64,000 bases of DNA, from NCBI RefSeq assembly GCF_900106675.1, contig NZ_FNOB01000001.1, positions 124,001 through 188,000 of the forward strand, in the 5' to 3' direction. Numbering within the stretch: position 1 is the stretch's first letter; each line of letters starts with the position of its first letter. The DNA is from Allgaiera indica (GTDB lineage Bacteria > Pseudomonadota > Alphaproteobacteria > Rhodobacterales > Rhodobacteraceae). The notes beneath the pieces are model-generated. The model had not been told where the DNA came from. It did no database searches and worked only from the letters and a program-made list of their open reading frames with translations. This document shows positions 35,095 through 51,488 of the stretch, piece by piece. Made by a program: the position numbers and the translations under genes.

Positions 35095-37281
35095 TCAGGT
35101 CACGTCGATCCAGGGGAAGCCTTCGGTGACCTCGCCGATCACCGCAGCGTGCGCGCCAGCGTCCCTCAGAGCGGCGCACAGGGCCTGGGCGCGCGGCCCG
35201 GGCACCGCCGCAAGCAACCCGCCCGCGGTTTGCGGATCGAAGAGCAGATCCGGTTCGGGGCCGTCGGGCACCGCCATCCGCGTGGCGGCCCGCCGGTTGG
35301 CGGGATAGAGCGTCGAGCGATGGCCCCGACCGGCCAGATCCGCAGCGCCCTCAATGAAGGGGATCTGCGCAAGGTCCAGCTTGGCGGCACAGGCCGAGGC
35401 GTCGAGGATCTCGAAAAGATGCCCGGCCAGGCCGAAGCCGGTCACATCGGTCATCGCATGGGCCTCGGGGGCCAGGATTGCGGCGTCTGCTGACAAGGGC
35501 CGCGACTGGCTGGCAAAGCAGGCGGCGACGGCACGGCCGGGGGCGGCGCGGGCCATCTCGGCGGCCAGAATGGTGCCGGTGCCCAGGGGTTTCGTCAGGA
35601 TCAGGAGGTCACCGGGGCGCGCACCGCCCTTGGCCGTGGCGCGGGGCGCGAGGCCGGTGAGGGTGAAGCCGAGCGTCAGTTCCGACCCGACCGAGGTATG
35701 GCCCCCCACCAGATCCGCCCCCGCTGCGCGAAAGACAGACTCGGCGGCCGCCATGATCTCGGCCAGGGTGCGGGCCTGCAGGTCGGGCGACAGCCGAGGC
35801 AGGGTGATCTGCGCCAGCGCCGCCTGTGGCGCCGCGCCCATCGCCCAGATGTCGCCAAGCGCATGAATCGCGGTGATCTGCGCCATCAGCCAGGGATCTT
35901 CGGTGAAGGCGCGCAGATGGTCGGTGGTGATCACTTGCACGCCGTCGCCATGGGTCAGCACCGCGGCATCGTCACCCGGCCCCGACAGGGTATCGGCGCG
36001 CTGCGGCCCCGGCAGCCCCGCAAGCGCCGCGAACAGCGCCCCGGGCCCCACCTTGGCGCCGCAACCGCCGCAAAGCGGCTTGCCGTCGGCCAGTTCCTCG
36101 GCCACGCCGGCGGCGACCTCTCGCGGCAGCGGTGGCCGAGGCATCGCCGGCAAGTCATGGAATTTGCGCATGAACTTGCGGTCGATCCGATCCTTCCAAC
36201 GCCAAAGCCAGCGCCCGCCCAGCCGCAGCCCCGCCTTGTCGGCCACCGCGCCCCTGAACCCGGTCGAAACAAGTTTCAGGTAGTCGCGCTGCGGCCGATA
36301 GGGCCGCAGGTCGCCCGCCCCCAGCGCGGCGCGCAGGTTGTGATACAGCACGGGCGCTTCGCGCACCGCGAAGACCCCGGCCTTTGGCCGCGGCGCATGG
36401 CTGAGATGCGCGCAATCGCCGACCGCGAAGATCGCGGGATCGGTCAGCGACTGAAGCGTCGGGCCGACGCTGACATAGCCCTCGTGCAGCTCCAGCCCCG
36501 TGTCGGCCAGCCAGCCCTGCGGCCGCGCCCCCGCCGCGCCCAACTGGAAGGCGGCGGGGATCAGGCGACCATCGGCCAGACGCAGGCCTTCGGCGGTGGC
36601 AGTCTTGGCCACCGCATCGGTGATCAGGGTCACGCGGGCCTCTGCCAGATGACGTAGCAACGCGGAACGCGCGCCCTTGCCGATGTTGGGCAGCGCCTCG
36701 GGCGCGCGTTCGACGATCGTGACCTGCGGGTCGGTGATGCCCACCTGCCGCAGCCGATGCGCGGCGGCCAGCGCCAGTTCCACCCCGGCAATGCCGCTGC
36801 CCAGCACCACGACCTGCGCCGCCACCTCGCCGCGCGCGGCGAGGGCGGTGAACGCCCCCCAGCGCGCGGCGAAATCGTCCATCGGCTTGGCCGGCGCGCC
36901 ATGCGCGGCAAAGCCCTCAAGCTCGGGCATTTCAGTGGTGATGCCGATGTCGATGGAGGCCACGTCATAGGCCACCGGCGGGCGGCCGGGAACATGGACG
37001 GTGCGCGCCGCGCGGTCGATGCCTTCGGCCCGGCCCAGGATCAGCCGGGCGCCGGCGTGACGGGCAAGGCGCACCAGGTCGATTTCCAGCGCGGCACGGT
37101 CGTAATGGCCGGCGATATGGCCCGGCAACATGCCCGAATAGGGCGCCGTGGGATGCGGGTTGATCAGCGTCAGCCGGGCGCCGGGCAGCGGCCGCATCCC
37201 CCAGCGGCGCAGCACCAGCGCATGGGCATGGCCGCCGCCGATCAGCACCACGTCCCGGGTGGCGGGGATCAGCGGCTGCAT
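35095..37281 (-). CDS. selD: FAD-dependent oxidoreductase fused to selenide, water dikinase (SelD)
   Basis: The 728-residue protein joins an NDH-2-like pyridine nucleotide-disulfide oxidoreductase (residues about 1-390; FAD loop VVLIGGGHAHALV, second dinucleotide loop VVVLGSGIAGVELALA, then FAVGDCAHL) to SelD (about 395-728). SelD makes selenophosphate for 2-selenouridine and selenocysteine. Its catalytic Cys and Lys are in LCGGCGAKVG (about residues 400-409), with Asp-rich metal sites in GPGDDAAVL and HALGDIWAMG. The start overlaps mnmH by 13 bp. This fusion is known in Rhodobacterales; the oxidoreductase may supply reduced selenium but that is unproven. Confidence 0.94.
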   Translation of the reverse strand: MQPLIPATRDVVLIGGGHAHALVLRRWGMRPLPGARLTLINPHPTAPYSGMLPGHIAGHYDRAALEIDLVRLARHAGARLILGRAEGIDRAARTVHVPGRPPVAYDVASIDIGITTEMPELEGFAAHGAPAKPMDDFAARWGAFTALAARGEVAAQVVVLGSGIAGVELALAAAHRLRQVGITDPQVTIVERAPEALPNIGKGARSALLRHLAEARVTLITDAVAKTATAEGLRLADGRLIPAAFQLGAAGARPQGWLADTGLELHEGYVSVGPTLQSLTDPAIFAVGDCAHLSHAPRPKAGVFAVREAPVLYHNLRAALGAGDLRPYRPQRDYLKLVSTGFRGAVADKAGLRLGGRWLWRWKDRIDRKFMRKFHDLPAMPRPPLPREVAAGVAEELADGKPLCGGCGAKVGPGALFAALAGLPGPQRADTLSGPGDDAAVLTHGDGVQVITTDHLRAFTEDPWLMAQITAIHALGDIWAMGAAPQAALAQITLPRLSPDLQARTLAEIMAAAESVFRAAGADLVGGHTSVGSELTLGFTLTGLAPRATAKGGARPGDLLILTKPLGTGTILAAEMARAAPGRAVAACFASQSRPLSADAAILAPEAHAMTDVTGFGLAGHLFEILDASACAAKLDLAQIPFIEGAADLAGRGHRSTLYPANRRAATRMAVPDGPEPDLLFDPQTAGGLLAAVPGPRAQALCAALRDAGAHAAVIGEVTEGFPWIDVT

Positions 37282-38324
37282 TGGATCAGCGCCTCGATTC
37301 GGGCCGCTAGACCGGGTAGCGCGGCCTCGCCCAGATCTTCGGTGGTGACGGTGCGGGCCTGGTCGCCGGCGGTGCGGGCGCGCTGCTTGTCGTAGCGCGG
37401 GTCGTAATGCTGCCGCATCAGTTCTGCCGCAAGCGTCTGGAACCGGCCCGTGTCCGCAAGGCCGTGCCAGTGCTCGATCGACTCGGCGGGCTGCATCGGG
37501 CGCAGCTTGTCGATCACCCGATGCAGGGCCTCGCGATCGGCGGTCAGGTCGGCATAGGCGCGCGCCAGGAAGGCCGCGCGCGCCTCCAGCGGGGCCGCGA
37601 CATGGATGCGCGGCGCGTCGCACATCGCGCGCCACAGCTTCGGCGGCAGGCGCAGATCGCCCACCTTGCTCGATTCGGCCTCGACCACCACGGGCCGGGT
37701 CGGGTCGAGCGCCGCGATCTCTTGCACCAGCGCGGTCTCGAACCCCTTCTGCGCCGGCTGCCCGCCCACCATCTGCCCGAAGAGAGACCCCCGGTGATTG
37801 GCCAGCCCCTCGAGGTCGATCACCTGCACGCCGCGCGCCCGCAGCTGATGCAGCAGTGCCGTCTTCGCCGTTCCGGTATTGCCGTCCAGCACCACCACCG
37901 GCGCCGGGAAGGGGGTTTCGTAAAGTGCCTTCACCACCAGCGCGCGCCAGCTTTTGTAGCCGCCTGCGACGGTTTCGGCCCGCCAGCCGATCTGGCCCAG
38001 GATCGTGGCGAAGGAACCCGACCGCTGGCCGCCGCGCCAGCAATAGACCAGCGGACGCCAGCCGCCGTCCATATCGGCCAGGGGCCCTTCGATATGGCGG
38101 GCGGCATTCTTCGCCACCAAAGCGGCGCCGATCTTGCGCGCCTTGAAGGGGCTTTCCTGCTTGTAGATCGTGCCGACCCGGGCGCGTTCGGCATCGTCGA
38201 GGACAGGCAGCGAGATCGCGCCGGGCATGTGGTCCTCGGCGAATTCGGCGGGGGAACGCACGTCGATCACGGCGTCGAAGCCCAGCGAGGCGAGGTCGGT
38301 CAGCGATGTCAGGGTCACGGCCAT
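37269..38324 (-). CDS. mnmH: tRNA 2-selenouridine synthase
   Basis: This enzyme (351 residues) replaces sulfur by selenium at the wobble 2-thiouridine of Lys, Glu and Gln tRNAs. The N-terminal rhodanese domain has the active Cys95 in VYCWRGGQRSG, and a P-loop region VVLDGNTGTAKTALLHQL follows at about residue 145. Pairing with selD argues that this organism uses selenium at least for tRNA modification. No selA or selB lies in the window, so selenoprotein synthesis is undetermined. Confidence 0.95.
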   Translation of the reverse strand: MAVTLTSLTDLASLGFDAVIDVRSPAEFAEDHMPGAISLPVLDDAERARVGTIYKQESPFKARKIGAALVAKNAARHIEGPLADMDGGWRPLVYCWRGGQRSGSFATILGQIGWRAETVAGGYKSWRALVVKALYETPFPAPVVVLDGNTGTAKTALLHQLRARGVQVIDLEGLANHRGSLFGQMVGGQPAQKGFETALVQEIAALDPTRPVVVEAESSKVGDLRLPPKLWRAMCDAPRIHVAAPLEARAAFLARAYADLTADREALHRVIDKLRPMQPAESIEHWHGLADTGRFQTLAAELMRQHYDPRYDKQRARTAGDQARTVTTEDLGEAALPGLAARIEALIQCSR

Positions 38325-39162: not shown

Positions 39163-40277
<1,115 letters not shown>

Positions 40278-40278
<1 letters not shown>

Positions 40279-40973
40279 TGACGAGGCAGCCCCCGGCCAA
40301 CGAAAACCCCGGCCGGGGGCATGCACTGCGCCGCACGGTCTTTCTGCATATCGGCAAGACCGGGGGCACCGCGTTGCGGGCGATGCTTCGCGCCCATTTT
40401 GCGCGGACCGGGCAGCGCCCGTTCGTGATCCTTCCCCATAGCGTGACGCTGGACCAGGCCGCGGCCCGGTATCCGCGCGCCGAGATCGGGTTCTTCATCC
40501 GCGATCCGCTTGATCGGCTGGTGTCGGGCTTTCTGTCGCGCCAACGGCGGGGCTGGCCGCGCCATGACATCCCCTGGACCGAGGACGAGGCCCGCGCATT
40601 CGCGGATTTCGACAGCCCCGATGCCCTGGGCCGCGCTCTGGCCGCGGACGATCCCCGTGCCCACGCCGCGCTGCAGGCCATACAGCACACGCGCGAAGGT
40701 CTGGCGCATTTCCTGGGCAGTCCCGAAACGCTGGACCATCTGGCGCCGCGGATCGGCTTCATCGGCCAGACCGAAAGGTTCGCGGCCGACATCGCGCGAC
40801 TGAAGGCGCGCTTTGGGCTGGCGCACGATCTCGCCCCGCCCGAAGACGCCGTCGGCGCCCATCGCAACCCCGAACCGCAGCGTGCCCGGCTTTCGCCCGA
40901 GGCGGCGGCGGCGCTGCGCGGATGGCTGGCCGCGGATTACGCGGTGTACGCCTGGTGCCGATGCCGGCCGTGA
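40278..40973 (+). CDS. Sulfotransferase-family protein
   Basis: This 231-residue protein has the two PAPS-binding motifs of sulfotransferases: FLHIGKTGGTALRAML near residue 22 (5'-phosphosulfate loop) and IGFFIRDPLDRLVSGFLSRQ near residue 73 (3'-phosphate motif). It is soluble with no signal peptide. Its start overlaps the mdh stop (TGATG), so the two are translationally coupled, although no metabolic link is obvious. A hypothetical gene at this spot occurs in relatives. The acceptor (carbohydrate or lipid) is unknown. Confidence 0.82.
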
Positions 40974-41032
40974 GTCGTCCATGCGGCCGACTCGGCCGCG
41001 ACACCCTGCCGCAGAGAGGGGCCGCATAGATA

Positions 41033-41063
41033 TGTGATCACAGCTTCAAATTGCGTGATCACA
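41033..41063. promoter_or_regulatory. Tandem GTGATCAC palindromes ahead of sucC
   Basis: TGTGATCACA (41033-41042) and CGTGATCACA (41054-41063) are two palindromes whose centres are 21 bp apart, two helical turns. They lie about 110-135 bp before the sucC start, between the sulfotransferase gene and the sucC-lpdA block. This fits cooperative binding by a dimeric regulator on one DNA face. The sequence recalls CRP- or FadR/GntR-type operators but the regulator is unidentified. Confidence 0.7.
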
Positions 41064-41169
41064 AAGCCCCCTTTTTTTTCGCAAATCCGCGATTTCCTGT
41101 AGATATCCGTTTCTCCGCCCGCCGCGATGTGCCATGTCGGCTGAAATTTCTCAGAGACGGGACGAGTTC

Positions 41170-42363
<1,194 letters not shown>

Positions 42364-42491
42364 ACCACGACGCCTGAGTCAAATACATCACGCGACTTGT
42401 CCTTTGGCACAGTGAAGCGAAGGCGGTGAACGGCAAGCGCCCGATCCGTGGTATGAGTGAGCATGGGTATGCCAAAGAGGAGAGTAACGGA

Positions 42492-42743
42492 ATGAGGATA
42501 CACCTTCCGAAAGCAGGACTGGCAGCCATTCTTGGCTGCGTGGCCCTGGCGGGCTGCGCCGACGGGATCCATGTCGAGGAACACACCTACAAGGGCACCC
42601 TGACCTGCCCGAACCTCGACCCCGTGGCTCAGAAATACATGCACGGCACGCCGAGTTCGCCGGTGCGTTGTGGTCCGCAGAAGGTGAACTACTGGGATCC
42701 GACGGTCACCACGACCGGCGGGCATTCGAAGCCCGCCGGCTGA
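42492..42743 (+). CDS. Small lipoprotein between sucC and sucD
   Basis: This 83-residue protein starts MRIHLPKAGLAAILGCVALAGC with a lipobox ALAGC at residues 18-22, so the mature protein is about 62 residues and two more Cys (TCPNL and RCGPQK) could form a disulfide. GAGGAGAG precedes the ATG. I recognise no domain. The position inside the suc block, in the same direction, suggests co-expression, but an envelope lipoprotein has no known part in succinyl-CoA metabolism. Confidence 0.8.
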   Translation: MRIHLPKAGLAAILGCVALAGCADGIHVEEHTYKGTLTCPNLDPVAQKYMHGTPSSPVRCGPQKVNYWDPTVTTTGGHSKPAG

Positions 42744-42892: not shown

Positions 42893-43774
42893 ATGGCCGT
42901 ACTCGTCGACGAAAACACCCGCGTCATCTGCCAGGGCATCACCGGCAGCCAGGGGACCTTCCATTCCGAACAGGCGATCGCCTATGGCACCAAGATGGTC
43001 GGCGGCGTGACCCCGGGCAAGGGCGGCCAGACCCATCTGAATCTGCCGGTCTTCGACTCGGTTCACGAAGCCGTCGCCAAGACCGAGGCGAACGCCACCG
43101 TGATCTACGTCCCGCCGCCTTTCGCCGCGGATTCGATCCTGGAAGCCATCGACGCCGAGATCGAGCTGATCGTCTGCATCACCGAGGGCATCCCGGTGCT
43201 GGACATGATGAAGGTCAAGCGCGCGCTGAACGGGTCCAAGTCCACCCTGATCGGTCCGAACTGCCCGGGCGTCATCACCCCCGACGCCTGCAAGATCGGC
43301 ATCATGCCCGGTCACATTCACAAGCGCGGCTCTGTCGGTGTTGTTTCGCGCTCGGGGACGCTTACCTATGAAGCCGTGAAACAGACGACGGATGTAGGCC
43401 TGGGCCAGTCCACCTGCGTCGGCATCGGCGGCGACCCGATCAAGGGCACCGAGCATATCGACGTGCTGGAATGGTTCCTGGCCGACGACGAGACCCAGTC
43501 GATCATCATGATCGGCGAAATCGGCGGCTCGGCCGAGGAAGAGGCGGCGCAGTTTCTGCGTGATGAGGCAAAGCGTGGCCGCAAGAAGCCGGTCGCGGGC
43601 TTCATCGCCGGCCGCACGGCGCCGAAGGGCCGGCGCATGGGCCATGCCGGCGCCATCGTTGCAGGTGGCAAGGGCGACGCGGAATCGAAGATCGAGGCCA
43701 TGAAATCGGCCGGGATCGTCGTGGCCGACAGCCCGGCGGGCCTGGGCGAGGCAGTGTTGAAGGCGATCGGCTGA
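42893..43774 (+). CDS. sucD: Succinyl-CoA synthetase alpha subunit
   Basis: This 293-residue CoA-binding subunit carries the phosphorylated His in [17 protein letters not shown] (about residue 250) and the CoA-binding N-terminus [18 protein letters not shown]. The motif LIGPNCPG is also present. The start at 42893 follows AGGAGGG; an earlier in-frame ATG at 42824 is rejected. Confidence 0.98.
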
Positions 43775-43810: not shown

Positions 43811-44116
43811 ATGGGGTTCGCGCAGGCAATCAGGACGTGTTCGGGGAAGCATCGCTTCTTCGCGCGGCCTGACGCGCCCGCCCTGCTGCGGCGGCCCCCC
43901 CTTCGCGCCCAGCCGGACGACGCCGAGGCACCGCGTCCCGGCGCCCGGCTTGCGGGGCGCCCCCACCCTGCCCGGCGCCTCCGGTCCCTGCATCCGAACT
44001 CCTGCATTTTCCATTCCGGGGCACATCCCGCCCCCGGGCCGCTTCGGCGGCCTTTCCGGCGCTCGCAGCCCGGCCCCCTTCCCTACGGTCCAAACCCGCT
44101 CGAGGTAACATCATGA
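43811..44116 (+). CDS. Doubtful open frame in the sucD-sucA gap
   Basis: The 338-bp gap between sucD and sucA contains a 101-codon frame that starts after GAAGAGGGAG and ends in an ATGA overlap with sucA. These two signals favour a gene. The product is Arg/Pro/Ala/His-rich with no recognisable fold or repeat, as chance frames in GC-rich DNA often are. I list it because its ends fit translation coupling to sucA; nothing else is visible in the gap. Confidence 0.2.
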   Translation: MGFAQAIRTCSGKHRFFARPDAPALLRRPPLRAQPDDAEAPRPGARLAGRPHPARRLRSLHPNSCIFHSGAHPAPGPLRRPFRRSQPGPLPYGPNPLEVTS

Positions 44117-47073
44117 CCGACCAATCCCCCAACGACCAATTCCGCGCCTCGTCGTTCCTCGACGGGGCGAATGCCGATTACATCGCCCAGCTCGAGGCCC
44201 GCTATGCCGCCGATCCGGCCAGCGTCGATGCCGCCTGGGCCGAATTCTTCGCCGCCGTCGGCGATGAGGCCCCCGCCGCGCGCAAGCAGGCCGCGGGCCC
44301 CAGCTGGGCGCGCGCCGACTGGCCGCCGGTTCCGACGGACGATCTTACCTCGGCGCTGACGGGCGAATGGCCCGCCGCGGCGGCCGAGATGAAGGACGCG
44401 GGCAAGAAGATCGCCAAGCAGGCCGAGAAATCCGGCGTCAGCCTGACCGACGATCAGGTCCAGCGCGCGGTGCTGGATTCGATCCGCGCGCTGATGCTGA
44501 TCCGCGCCTATCGCATCCGCGGCCACCTGGCCGCCGACCTGGACCCGCTGGCGCGCAGCGAAACCACCCACTACCCCGAGCTGGACCCGAAATCCTATGG
44601 TTTCGCCGAGGCCGACATGGACCGGCCGATCTTCATCGACAACGTGCTGGGCATGCAGCTGGCCTCGATGCGGCAGATCCTGGAGATCGTGAAGCGCACC
44701 TATTGCGGCACCTTCGCGCTGCAATACATGCACATCTCGGACCCCGAGCAATCGAGCTGGCTGAAGGAGCGGATCGAGGGCTACGGCAAGGAGATCAGCT
44801 TTACCCGCGAGGGACGCCGGGCGATCCTGAACAAGCTGGTCGAGGCCGAGGGCTTCGAGAAGTTCCTGCATGTCAAGTACATGGGCACCAAGCGCTTCGG
44901 CCTGGACGGCGGTGAAAGCCTGATCCCGGCGATGGAGCAGATCATCAAGCGCGGCGGCGCGCTGGGGGTGAAGGAGATCGTCATCGGCATGCCCCACCGG
45001 GGCCGTCTGTCGGTGCTGGCCAACGTACTGGCCAAGCCCTACCGCGCGATCTTCAACGAATTCCAGGGCGGCAGCTTCAAGCCCGAGGACGTGGACGGGT
45101 CGGGCGACGTGAAATATCACCTCGGCGCCTCGTCGGATCGCACCTTCGACGACAACACCGTGCACCTGTCGCTGACCGCCAACCCCAGCCACCTGGAGGC
45201 GGTGAACCCCGTCGTTCTGGGCAAGGCACGCGCCAAGCAATCGCAGCTCAACGATGCCGAGCGCAGCCAAGTGCTGCCGGTGCTGCTGCATGGCGACGCG
45301 GCCTTCGCCGGCCAGGGTGTGGTGGCGGAATGCTTCGGCATGTCGGGGCTGGTGGGCCACCGCGCGGGCGGCACGATCCATCTGGTGGTGAACAACCAGA
45401 TCGGCTTCACCACCGCGCCGCATTTCTCGCGCTCGTCGCCCTACCCGACCGATATCGCGCTGATGGTCGAGGCGCCGATCTTCCACGTCAACGGCGACGA
45501 TCCCGAGGCCGTGGTTCATGCCGCCAAGGTGGCCACCGAGTTCCGCCAGAAGTTCCACAAGGACGTGGTGATCGACATCTTCTGCTACCGCCGCTTCGGT
45601 CACAACGAAGGCGACGAGCCGATGTTCACCAACCCGATCATGTACACCAAGATCAAGAAGCAGAAGACCACGCTTCAGCTTTATACCGAGCGTCTGGTGA
45701 AGGACGGGCTGATCCCCGAGGGCGAGATCGAGGACATGAAGGCCTCGTTCCAGGCCCATCTGAACGAGGAATTCGAGGCCGGCAAGGATTACAAGCCCAA
45801 CAAGGCCGACTGGCTGGATGGCCGCTGGTCCGGGATCGACCGCGAGGGTGCCGAATACACCCCGGGCCAGACCGCGATTTCGCCCGACACGCTGGCCGAG
45901 GTCGGCGAGGCCCTGGTGCGGGTGCCGGAAGGCTTCAACCTGCACAAGACCGTGGGCCGGCTGCTGGAAGCAAAGCGCAAGATGTTCGAAACCGGCCAGG
46001 GCTTTGACTGGGCCACCGCCGAGGCGATCGCCTTCGGCAGCCTGACAACCGAGGGCTTCCCGGTCCGTCTGTCGGGCCAGGACTGCACCCGCGGTACCTT
46101 CAGCCAGCGGCATTCGGCCTTCTTCGATCAGCAGACGGAAGAGCGTTATTACCCGCTCAACCACATCCGTGAGGGTCAGGCGCGCTTCGAGGTGATCGAC
46201 TCGATGCTGTCGGAATACGCGGTGCTGGGTTTCGAATACGGCTATTCGCTGGCCGAACCCAACGCGCTGACCCTGTGGGAAGCCCAGTTCGGCGACTTCG
46301 CCAACGGCGCGCAGATCATGTTCGACCAGTTCATCAGCTCGGGCGAACGCAAATGGCTGCGGATGTCGGGTCTGGTGATGCTGCTGCCGCACGGCTTCGA
46401 GGGCCAGGGACCGGAACATTCCTCGGCCCGGCTGGAGCGCTTCCTGCAGATGTGCGCCGAGGACAACTGGATCGTCGCGAACTGCACCACGCCGGCGAAC
46501 TACTTCCACATCCTGCGCCGGCAGTTGCACCGCAGCTTCCGCAAGCCCTTGGTGCTGATGACGCCGAAATCGCTGCTGCGCCATCCGATGTGCATCTCGG
46601 ACGCCGAGGATTTCACCACCGGTTCGCATTTCCACCGCGTGCTGTGGGACGACGCCGAAAAGGGCCATTCCGACACCAAGCTGGTGGCCGACAAGAAAAT
46701 CAAGCGCGTGGTGATGTGTTCGGGCAAGGTCTATTTCGATCTGCTGGCCGAACGCGACGCGCGCGGCATCGACGACATTTACCTGATGCGGCTTGAGCAA
46801 TTCTATCCCTTCCCGGCGCTGGCGCTGGTGAAGGAGCTGGAGCGCTTCAAGCAGGCGGAAATCGTCTGGTGCCAGGAAGAACCGAAGAACCAGGGCGGCT
46901 GGACCTTCATCGAGCCGAACATCGAATGGGTGCTGACCCGGATCGGGGCGAAACATTCGCGGCCCCGCTATGTCGGCCGTCAGGCCTCGGCCTCGCCGGC
47001 GACCGGTCTGGCCAGTCAGCACAAGAAACAGCAGGAAGCGCTCGTGAACGAAGCGCTGACGATCGAAGGATAA
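44113..47073 (+). CDS. sucA: 2-oxoglutarate dehydrogenase E1 component
   Basis: The 986-residue thiamine enzyme decarboxylates 2-oxoglutarate. It has the N-terminal E2-binding segment ([21 protein letters not shown]), the thiamine-diphosphate core with [19 protein letters not shown] and NNQIGFTT, and the C-terminal transketolase-like half with [11 protein letters not shown]. Length and order match the family. sucB follows by 4 bp. Translation may be coupled to the doubtful upstream frame. Confidence 0.98.
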
Positions 47074-47077
47074 GAAT

Positions 47078-48607
47078 ATGGCAACGGAAGTGCGTGTTCC
47101 CACGCTGGGTGAAAGCGTCTCGGAAGCCACGGTCGCGACCTGGTTCAAGCAGCCGGGCGATGCGGTCGCGGTGGACGAGATGCTGTGCGAACTGGAAACC
47201 GACAAGGTCACCGTCGAGGTGCCCAGCCCGGTTTCCGGCATTCTCGACGAAATCGTCGCCAAGGAAGGCGAAACGGTCGGTGTGAACGCTCTGCTCGCGC
47301 AGGTCGCCGAAGAGGGCAAGGCCGGCGCGGAAGAGCCCCGGCCGCGCAAGACGGCGGATCAGGACACGATTGTTGCAGGCGGCGGAGAAGAGAGCAAGAT
47401 GGTCGACGTGATGGTGCCCGCGTTGGGCGAAAGCGTATCCGAGGCGACGGTCGCCACCTGGTTCAAGAAGGAAGGTGAGGCGGTCGCACAGGACGAGATG
47501 CTGTGCGAGCTGGAGACCGACAAGGTCTCGGTCGAGGTGCCGGCGCCCGCCGCGGGCGTGATGGGCAAGATCCTGGTGGGCGAAGGCGAGACCGTCGCCG
47601 CAGGCTCGAAACTGGCCGAGATCTCGGCGGGCGCCTCTGCCGCCGCCTCGGCACCGGCACCGGCCGCGAAGGAAGAAGCGGCCCCCGCCCAGTCCGAGGC
47701 GCCCCGGAAGGATGTCGAGGACGCGCCCTCGGCCAAGAAGGCGATGGCCGATGCGGGTATCGGCCGCGATCAGGTGCAGGGGACCGGCCGCGACGGCCGT
47801 GTGATGAAGGACGACGTGGCGCGCGCCGTGGCCGCGGCTTCCGCGAGCACGACGAAGACCAGCGCCCCGGCCCCGGCGCCGCGCGCCGCGGTGCCCGCCG
47901 ATGACGCCGCGCGCGAGGAGCGGGTCAAGATGACCCGACTGCGCCAGACCATCGCGCGGCGCCTGAAGGACGCGCAGAACACCGCCGCCATGCTGACGAC
48001 CTATAACGAGGTCGACATGAAGGCGATCATGGATCTGCGCAACGAATACAAGGGCGTGTTCGAGAAGAAGCACGGGGTCAAGCTGGGCTTCATGTCGTTC
48101 TTCGTGAAGGCCTGCTGCCACGCGCTGGCCGAAGTCCCCGAAGTCAACGCCGAGATCGACGGCACCGACGTGGTCTACAAGAACTACGTCCACATGGGCG
48201 TGGCCGTGGGTACACCGCAGGGCCTGGTGGTGCCGGTGGTGCGCGACGCCGACCAGATGGGTTTCGCCGCGATCGAGAAGAAGATCGCCGAACTGGGCGC
48301 CCGCGCCCGTGACGGCAAGTTGTCGATGGCCGAGATGCAGGGCGGCTCCTTCACCATCTCGAACGGTGGCGTCTATGGTTCGCTGATGTCCTCGCCGATC
48401 CTGAACCCGCCGCAATCGGGGATCCTGGGGATGCACAAGATCCAGGAACGCCCGATGGTCGTCGGCGGCCAGATCGTGATCCGGCCGATGATGTATCTGG
48501 CGCTCAGCTACGATCACCGCGTGGTCGACGGCAAAGGCGCGGTGACCTTCCTGGTGCGGGTCAAGGAAGCGCTTGAGGATCCGCGCCGCCTGCTGATGGA
48601 TCTGTAG
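47078..48607 (+). CDS. sucB: 2-oxoglutarate dehydrogenase E2 with two lipoyl domains
   Basis: The 509-residue dihydrolipoyl succinyltransferase carries two near-identical lipoyl domains at residues about 1-77 and 108-184, each with the lipoylated Lys in ELETDKV. An Ala/Glu/Pro linker leads to the peripheral subunit-binding domain ([11 protein letters not shown] to GRVMKDDV), then the catalytic domain with His in [11 protein letters not shown]. Most proteobacterial SucB proteins have a single lipoyl domain, so this one is longer than usual. It follows sucA by 4 bp. Confidence 0.97.
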
Positions 48608-49595: not shown

Positions 49596-50107
49596 TGCTG
49601 TCCAAGGCCCGCCCCCTCTGCCGTGCCATCCAGGCCCTCGCGCTGCTCGCGCTGCTTGCCAGCATCGGCGCGATGGGGCTTTTCGGCACGCCGCCCTTAG
49701 GGAGGGCCGGGGCGACGCTGCTGGCGTTGCTGGCGATCGCGCTGCTGGTGACGGCGGGCCTGGGGTTGCGCAGGCTTGCCGAATTGCGCGCCTACGCCGT
49801 GCCGGAATTCGAGGCCGCCCTGCTGCGGTCGATCATCGGCGGGATGATCTTTCTCGCGGCGGTCTATCACCTGTCCTGGGTCATGCGTACCTTCGCCATC
49901 ATCCACGTCTCGTTGGACCGGTTGATGCCGCTTTGGGCGGACCATGTGCTGGGCCTCGCCCCAAGTGTTCTGATCGTGCTCGCGGCGGAACGGATCCTGC
50001 GCCACACCCCCGGCGCCGACGGATTCCGCACCGCCGGCAAATTGAAATCCTTCCGGCCACGCGCCGGACAGACAAAGAAGAAATCCAAAGGAGGCCTTCA
50101 TGGCTAG
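49592..50107 (+). CDS. Small membrane protein between MAPEG gene and lpdA
   Basis: This 171-residue protein has about four hydrophobic segments, is rich in Leu and Ala, and ends with a basic tail ([14 protein letters not shown]). I recognise no family. Its start overlaps the MAPEG stop and its own end overlaps the lpdA start by 8 bp, so it sits inside the sucAB-lpdA transcript. Whether it works with the dehydrogenase complex is unknown; the basic tail is likely cytoplasmic. Confidence 0.75.
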
Positions 50108-51488
50108 CTATGATGTGATCGTGATCGGCGGTGGCCCGGGGGGCTATGTCTGTGCCATCCGCTGCGCCCAACTGGGGCTGAAAACCGCCTGCGTCGAGGG
50201 GCGCGACGCCCTGGGCGGCACCTGCCTGAACGTGGGCTGCATCCCCTCGAAGGCGTTGCTGCACGCCAGCCACATGCTGCACGAGGCCGAGCACAACTTT
50301 GCCACCCTCGGGCTGAAGGGCAAGGCGCCTAGTGTCGATTGGGCGCAGATGCTGTCCTACAAGGACGACACCATCGCCCAGAACACCAAGGGCATCGAAT
50401 TCCTGTTCAAGAAGAACAAGATCGACTGGATCAAGGGCTGGGCCACGGTGCCCGCCGCGGGCAAGGTCAAGGTCGGCGACGAGACCCATGAGGCCAAGAA
50501 CATCGTCATCGCCTCGGGGTCCGAACCCGCGCCGCTGCCGGGCGTCGAGGTCGACGAGAAGGTGATCGTCACCTCGACCGGCGCGCTGTCGCTTGCCAAG
50601 CCGCCGAAAACCATGGTGGTGATCGGCGGCGGCGTCATCGGGCTGGAACTGGGCTCGGTCTACGCGCGGCTTGGTGCCAAGGTGACGGTGGTCGAATTCC
50701 TCGACGCGATCGTGCCGGGCGCCGATGCCGAGGTCGCGCGCACCTTCCAGCGCATGCTGAAGAAGCAGGGGATCGAGATCGTCACCGGCGCAGCGGTGCA
50801 GACCGCCACGGTGGCGAAGGGCAAGGCCAAGGTCACCTACAAGCTGCGCAAGGACGACAGCGAGGCAACGCTTGACGCCGACGCGGTGCTGCTGGCCACC
50901 GGCCGCCGCCCCTATACCGAGGGGCTTGGCCTTGACGGGCTGGGCGTGGCGCTGACCAAGCGCGGCCAGATCGAGACCGACAAGCAGTGGCAGACCTCGG
51001 TCAAGGGCATCTACGCGATCGGCGACGTGATCGAAGGGCCGATGCTTGCCCACAAGGCCGAGGACGAGGGCATGGCGGTGGCCGAGGTGATCGCCGGCCA
51101 GCATGGGCATGTGAACTACTCGGTGATCCCAGGCGTGATCTACACCACCCCCGAGGTCGCCTGGGTCGGCCAGACCGAAGAGGCGCTGAAGGCCGAGGGC
51201 CGGGCGTTCAAGGCGGGCAAGTTCTCGTTCATGGGCAATGCGCGCGCCAAGGCGGTGCTGCACGGCGAAGGCTTCGTGAAGATCCTGTCGGACAAGGAAA
51301 CCGACCGCATCCTGGGGGTTCACATCATCGGCCCCTCGGCGGGTGAGCTGATCCACGAGGCCTGCGTCGCGATGGAATTCGGCGCCGCCGCCGAAGACCT
51401 GGCGCGCACCTGCCACGCGCATCCGACCTTCTCGGAAGCGGTGCGCGAGGCCGCGCTTGCCTGCGGTGACGGCCCGATCCATTCGTGA
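50100..51488 (+). CDS. lpdA: Dihydrolipoyl dehydrogenase (E3)
   Basis: This flavoprotein (462 residues) reoxidises the lipoyl groups of SucB. It has the FAD loop [13 protein letters not shown], the redox disulfide in [19 protein letters not shown], the NAD loop [13 protein letters not shown], a second FAD contact IYAIGDVI and the C-terminal active-site His-Glu in [19 protein letters not shown] lies before the ATG, inside the previous gene. It is the last gene of the suc block. Confidence 0.98.

Follow-up and report, generated by a model that had tools for sequence, protein, structure and literature searches.

The two identical palindromes upstream of sucC in the analysed DNA of Allgaiera indica are very probably a predicted docking site through which AkgR would activate citric-acid-cycle (TCA) genes in Rhodobacteraceae. 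The comparative sequence evidence suggests that AkgR, an activator of the GntR family, would use the pair as a double operator at both the sucC block and sdhC, and we assign this reading a probability of roughly 0.86. The window, which is the whole stretch of 64,000 nucleotides that was analysed, carries the palindrome GTGATCAC twice ahead of sucC, with 13 bases between the two boxes and a centre-to-centre distance of 21 bp (Table 1). The end of the downstream box is 107 bases away from the ATG of sucC. The preliminary description had noted identical 8-bp palindromes at 21-bp centre spacing ahead of the sucC-lpd block, and both the identity and the spacing are exact in the sequence; its span of 41033-41063 narrows to 41034-41062 for the boxes themselves. 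The site links an oddity of raw sequence to a known TCA-cycle activator across some 200 genera of one family, and it offers a natural test case for helical phasing and A/T tracts in activator action at a distance.

Table 1. Predicted operator, A/T tracts, putative promoter elements and downstream genes, in window coordinates.
Feature	Position	Strand	Basis
Upstream AkgR-type box GTGATCAC	41034..41041		exact pair in 205/248 family genomes
13-bp spacer, A/T-rich centre	41042..41054		N13 is the commonest spacing of pairs
Downstream AkgR-type box GTGATCAC	41055..41062		exact pair in 205/248 family genomes
A/T tract 1 (AAA, +1 to +3 from box end)	41063..41065		window read; family profile
A/T tract 2 (T8, +10 to +17)	41072..41079		window read; family profile
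A/T tract 3 (AAAT, +21 to +24)	41083..41086		window read; family profile
A/T tract 4 (ATTT, +30 to +33)	41092..41095		window read; family profile
A/T tract 5 (TAGATAT with one G, +38 to +44)	41100..41106		window read; family profile
Putative -35 (TTTCTC)	41110..41115	+	inferred from TTT common at +48 to +50 of sucC sites
Putative -10 (CATGTC), weak	41133..41138	+	inferred from +71 (C 65%) and +73 (T 56%); no consensus match
sucC	41170..42363	+	ORF; tblastn matches
sucD	42893..43774	+	ORF; name and start by inspection
sucA (2-oxoglutarate dehydrogenase E1)	44113..47073	+	ORF; name by inspection
sucB (E2)	47078..48607	+	ORF; name by inspection
lpd (E3)	50100..51488	+	ORF; name by inspection

By inspection, mdh lies upstream of the operator, and a sulfotransferase-like ORF (40080-40973, + strand) separates it from the operator of sucC. 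A small lipoprotein-like ORF (42426-42743, + strand) is located between sucC and sucD, and the sucB product (47078-48607, + strand) apparently has two tandem lipoyl domains; both assignments were made by inspection.

The window contains four copies of GTGATCAC against 0.87 expected, a number reached by 0 of 100 shuffles. The remaining two copies (18069 and 35927) lie within coding-like ORFs, by inspection those of a tag-like glycosylase and a selD-like fusion. A 982-aa ORF at 35095-38043 (- strand) appears on inspection to encode a pyridine-nucleotide oxidoreductase fused to a SelD (selenophosphate synthetase)-like protein. The whole genome has 146 copies of the palindrome, about 2.5 times the rate predicted by the window shuffles. 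If these 146 copies were placed at random, about 0.005 pairs would be expected by arithmetic at exactly 13-base spacing. A genome scan for pairs at 21-bp spacing, which the preliminary description had proposed, found two of them, before sucC and before sdhC, and its view of the site as unlikely by chance agrees with 2 pairs found against about 0.005 expected. The second pair lies upstream of sdhC, sdhD and sdhA. The genome has no pair at other spacings among 8-18 bases between copies, and the reversed-pattern control gave 0 pairs in the same scan. This control was also 0 in the N13 (13-base spacing) scan of 248 genomes and in the one-mismatch and held-out scans described below, and 1 in each of the whole-genome count, the N0-30 family scan and the class scan. 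It is a lenient control because its pattern includes CTAG, a tetranucleotide that many bacteria have at low frequency. An Rfam scan of 40900-41250 with E up to 1 gave no match to a riboswitch or structured leader. A CRP/FNR-type site was also considered and rejected by inspection, because the half-sites are contiguous here, as judged against the CRP/FNR consensus.

The pair is nearly restricted to Rhodobacteraceae. In a family sample of 248 Rhodobacteraceae genomes, one per genus, the exact N13 pair was found in 205 (reversed control 0), and a pair at any spacing of 0-30 in 222 (reversed control 1). The preliminary description had held that absence from close relatives would speak against the site, and the pair is indeed conserved in these 205 of 248 genomes. 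The spacing itself is rigid, with 354 pairs at N13 versus 84 for all remaining 30 spacings in N0-30 taken together, summed over the 248 genomes; among the 75 sites listed in the N0-30 scan, 65 are at 13, 5 at 12 and 5 elsewhere. A one-mismatch pair was present in 11 of the 43 genomes without the exact N13 pair. In the class-level scan, the exact pair occurred in 4/5 family genomes versus 2/380 non-family genomes, and neither of the two non-family pairs (L227 and L228) has a suc, sdh or fumarase match in its vicinity. We also inspected named sucC loci, taking the best 80 of a longer list, of which 44 were Rhodobacteraceae-like by record title and identity and 36 belonged to other alphaproteobacteria. 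Among these best 80 loci, the pair precedes sucC in 41/44 of the Rhodobacteraceae-like group (35 at N13 and 6 at N12) and in 0/36 of the other alphaproteobacteria.

Every family site read (144/144) precedes TCA genes, with sucC at 72 sites, sdhC at 70, sucA at 1 and fumarase at 1. The exploratory set consisted of 69 of the 75 sites listed in the 248-genome N13 scan, and its sites lie before sucC (34), sdhC (33), a fumarase gene (1) and sucA directly (1). The held-out set consisted of 75 of 76 sites from 38 other two-pair genomes, for which the predictions were written down first. All 75 held-out sites lie before TCA genes: 38 before sucC, 36 before sdhC, and additionally the site L270, which is also before sdhC and whose sdhC match begins at residue 8. 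Two features of an AkgR operator are found here, namely the palindrome GTGATCAC at the sucC site and a position before TCA genes of the AkgR regulon at 144/144 family sites. In one genome (G042), a third pair (L036 1501-1529) is located ahead of a fumarase gene, which suggests that the regulon can spread.

AkgR of Rhodobacter sphaeroides and its TCA regulon were reportedly described by Imam, Noguera and Donohue in mBio in 2015, and we take RSP_0981 to be AkgR. In the available passages of one paper, GTGATCAC is the motif of AkgR, and AkgR is called an activator in R. sphaeroides (PMC6365646). Excerpts of another give sucCD, sdh and 2-oxoglutarate dehydrogenase as predicted targets of the GntR protein RSP_0981 in R. 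sphaeroides, and the number RSP_0981 is close to those of sdh, RSP_0974-6 (PMC4344238). Since the palindrome is published as the AkgR motif in these passages, the sucC site represents a known kind of operator. The preliminary description had envisaged a regulator of succinyl-CoA/2-oxoglutarate metabolism at the site, and this is supported by the comparative sequence evidence together with the AkgR motif and the RSP_0981 targets in the published passages. The likeness extends to both elements, as GTGATCAC is among the binding sites of R. sphaeroides AkgR (PMC6365646, passages available) and the predicted targets of RSP_0981 are the same operons as those found here (PMC4344238, passages available). 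The fixed 21-bp doubling, the phased A/T tracts, the near whole-turn -35 distances and the family-wide extent go beyond those AkgR and RSP_0981 passages. We found no description of a phased A/T architecture with the pair in the literature searched, the primary AkgR paper lying outside it. The regulator and the motif are already known; in the literature read, a box doubled this rigidly, followed by an A/T ladder in helical phase and spaced from the promoter by near whole turns, appears to be an undescribed variant.

The DNA between the pair and the promoter contains A/T-rich tracts in helical phase with the boxes. The family A/T peaks lie near +2, +12, +22, +32 and +42 past the pair end, at sucC and sdhC alike. 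In the exploratory set, the A/T period was 9.9 bp for sucC (n=34) and 10.2 bp for sdhC (n=33), and 0/5000 random rotations were as strong. The held-out set without L270 gave 9.8 bp for sucC (n=38) and 10.1 bp for sdhC (n=36), with 0/5000 rotations each. Individual promoters were in phase in 64/67 exploratory cases, 58 of which exceed 95% of base shuffles, and in 74/74 held-out cases, 70 of which do so. The period persists after dropping sequences that are at least 50% alike (n=32 and 46). AA and TT are the commonest A/T steps in the tracts and TA is the rarest, while pure runs of A or of T account for only some of their length. A weak 10-bp period is also seen in the flank upstream of the pairs, with a power of 0.16 and 0.15 versus 1.33 and 0.88 downstream. 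Four sdhC sites with a -35-like element at 48-49 show weak A/T phasing (amplitude 0.055).

The distance from the pair to a -35-like element of sdhC also changes in near whole turns. At the 34 sucC sites, T is found at +48 to +50 in 85, 82 and 74%, respectively. A sigma-70 consensus scan before the window sucC gave no promoter, and the putative -35 and -10 elements in Table 1 are not consensus matches. The sdhC sites have a clearer element, [GT]TGAC, which we took as the -35; it occurs exactly once in 28/33 exploratory and 31/36 held-out sites, with 0.14 per site expected in shuffles. Among all 69 sdhC sites, [GT]TGAC is missing from 9 and occurs twice in 1. Where it occurs once, the element lies 58-61 bp past the pair in 48/59 sites; in the other 11 the distance is 37, 48, 49, 69, 70, 79 or 80, which differs from the main one by close to whole turns. 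The whole-turn test, which was designed after the distances were seen, gave P of about 1e-4 when counted by site (11), 0.002-0.003 by distinct value (7) and 0.012-0.015 by cluster (4). The predicted sdhC -35 distances of 49, 58-61, 70 and 79-80 were loosely matched, the held-out set adding 37 once, 48 once and 69 twice. The held-out resultant of 0.88 passed its mark mainly because most sdhC sites share one distance.

From these putative elements, the two boxes at sucC would be placed near -88 and -109, and those at sdhC roughly a turn farther out. Such a position well upstream of the polymerase suits a fixed-face activator, not a blocking repressor. In class I activation, CRP acts from -61.5 and further upstream. 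The arrangement found here agrees with this class, in that the predicted activator would bind ahead of the -35 and keep to one face of the helix, as judged from putative -35 elements. It resembles class I CRP in its upstream position and apparent helical-face dependence, and differs from it in that two dimers of another protein family would bind further upstream (at about -88 and -109 at sucC, from the putative -35). Provided that the -35 is correctly assigned, the tracts at sucC lie near -42, -52, -62, -72 and -82. The positions further upstream (around -62, -72 and -82) are used by the RNA polymerase alpha C-terminal domain (alphaCTD) in E. coli as well. The two positions nearest the -35 are alphaCTD-contacted regions in E. 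coli according to the available part of PMC2613000. The same part describes UP elements of bacterial promoters as A/T-rich, upstream of the -35 and contacted by the alphaCTD in the minor groove (PMC2613000). The promoters here resemble UP elements in that they, too, have A/T-rich tracts ahead of the -35; UP elements as described there have two subsites (-58 to -45 and -45 to -37), whereas here five tracts extend over about 45 bp and are tied to the activator pair (PMC2613000, available part).

We propose that two AkgR dimers, one per palindrome, would sit two helical turns apart on the same DNA face. They would be placed some 85-110 bp ahead of the point where the sucC-sucD-sucA-sucB-lpd block starts, and the same pair would serve sdhC. 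The phased A/T tracts may curve the DNA or dock the alphaCTDs, by which AkgR could reach the polymerase, and this would be a class I-like activation at a distance. At akgR itself, a single box just before the start codon would lead to repression by AkgR. In its full form, the model has the AkgR dimer pair coupled to the polymerase by an A/T ladder of one tract per turn, which docks alphaCTDs or wraps DNA; the ladder length would evolve by whole turns only, with the A/T phase but not the sequence kept, and the single core-promoter box would give negative feedback at akgR. We hold this full form tentatively, at somewhat short of even odds. Curvature alone, or wrapping on a protein, would account for the A/T phase just as well as alphaCTD docking.

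The phased A/T tracts could instead be a general feature of strong promoters in the family, as curvature or UP-like DNA, unrelated to AkgR. We consider this unlikely, though it keeps an appreciable chance. A/T-rich UP elements contacted by the alphaCTD are described for bacterial promoters in the available part of PMC2613000, and the promoters examined for phasing were those of sucC and sdhC only; transcription start sites of R. sphaeroides have been mapped (PMC7471390). Against such a general feature, in two operons the A/T phase stays fixed relative to the box for more than 40 bp, and no such period appears around single GTGATCAC sites (154 oriented copies, each site taken both ways), where the power is 0.03 at best. 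Moreover, 111/141 promoters surpass the 95% level of 4000 windows with comparable composition.

A candidate akgR gene was found through the small genome G090, which has only three GntR-domain hits. One of its GntR proteins has reciprocal best hits of 58-66% identity in 5/6 other small genomes and 34% identity in the sixth. A relative of this candidate (P0001) has a GntR wHTH (51.5 bits) and an FCD domain (71 bits), and McbR (4p9f) is its nearest solved structure by sequence. An FCD domain may be attributed to AkgR from the inferred ortholog. Across the 248 genomes, the best matches of the candidate have an E of 1e-78 or better in 221, and are worse than 1e-60 or lacking in 27. Scored against a pair at any spacing, 217 genomes have both, 4 the gene only, 5 the pair only and 22 neither (Fisher P = 7e-23, uncorrected for relatedness but with one genome per genus). 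The candidate is thus present in 217/222 family genomes with a pair and absent in 22/26 without any; the absences are softer than these counts, because 15 of the 27 genomes were scored on 12 first-look candidates only. The exact N13 pair is missing from 21 ortholog-bearing genomes; in 17 of them the pair has a different spacing, and 4 have no exact pair (G040, G147, G155 and G166), a one-mismatch pair being present in three of these four. The candidate lies within 25 kb of a pair in 15/51 genomes compared.

The pair is kept in 5/27 genomes without a strong ortholog (G019, G033, G096, G114 and the window's genome, G000). In G000, which was scored in full, no akgR ortholog was seen and the syntenic place reads N in the assembly; both congeners searched have the akgR candidate at 74-75% identity. 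G000 has 17 GntR-domain hits over Pfam's cut-off, and none of the 15 best of its 20 GntR-domain hits is a clear ortholog of the candidate group (best about 30%). The GntR proteins of G000 at L061 (beside oxalate-type genes) and L047 (beside transporter/SDR genes) look like local regulators by inspection.

We read 32 akgR loci, comprising the 30 best-matching and the two congeners and thus not a random draw. GTGATCAC is near the akgR start in 20/32 loci and absent in 12/32. In 17 of the 20 box-bearing loci, the next in-frame start codon follows the box after 16-18 bases, and the box is usually downstream of a TTGAC. A protein bound to this single box past the TTGAC would block the promoter.

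These results bear on the possibility that the pair is mainly read by another protein, e.g., a second GntR regulator, with the akgR candidate as a mere fellow traveller. The five genomes that have the pair and lack a strong ortholog, and the 17 GntR-domain hits in the window's genome, would fit such a protein. In the available passages of PMC6365646, moreover, the GntR-like PS417_07240 of a deoxyribonate cluster in Pseudomonas simiae is the proposed binder of the same palindrome GTGATCAC as found here, and AkgR is 32% identical to it. However, the palindrome proposed for PS417_07240 is a single one, 40-47 bp ahead of the start codon of its own gene, and the target is a catabolic cluster, whereas the palindrome is doubled here and lies before TCA operons (PMC6365646, passages available). 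The absence of the candidate in 22/26 genomes without any pair, the box near its own start in 20/32 loci and the publication of the motif for AkgR in those passages (PMC6365646) make another main reader quite improbable.

Repression rather than activation of sucC and sdhC by AkgR on the pair is highly improbable. Many GntR/FCD proteins are repressors, and the akgR box just before the start codon is at a repressor position. By contrast, at sucC and sdhC 37-80 bp separate the box end from the -35-like element, too great a distance for a bound protein to block it and one that falls near whole turns, and AkgR is termed an activator in the available passages of PMC6365646. A chance repeat without function, for which the 146 single copies of GTGATCAC in the genome could be cited, is of negligible probability in view of the 2 pairs found against about 0.005 expected, both ahead of TCA operons, the exact pair in 205/248 genera and the held-out sites (75/75 before TCA genes).

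At G187:C1:3357949-3357969, two GTGATCAC boxes are only 5 bases apart, with the end of the akgR match in this genome about 40 bases away, an arrangement that differs from the pairs at the TCA operons.
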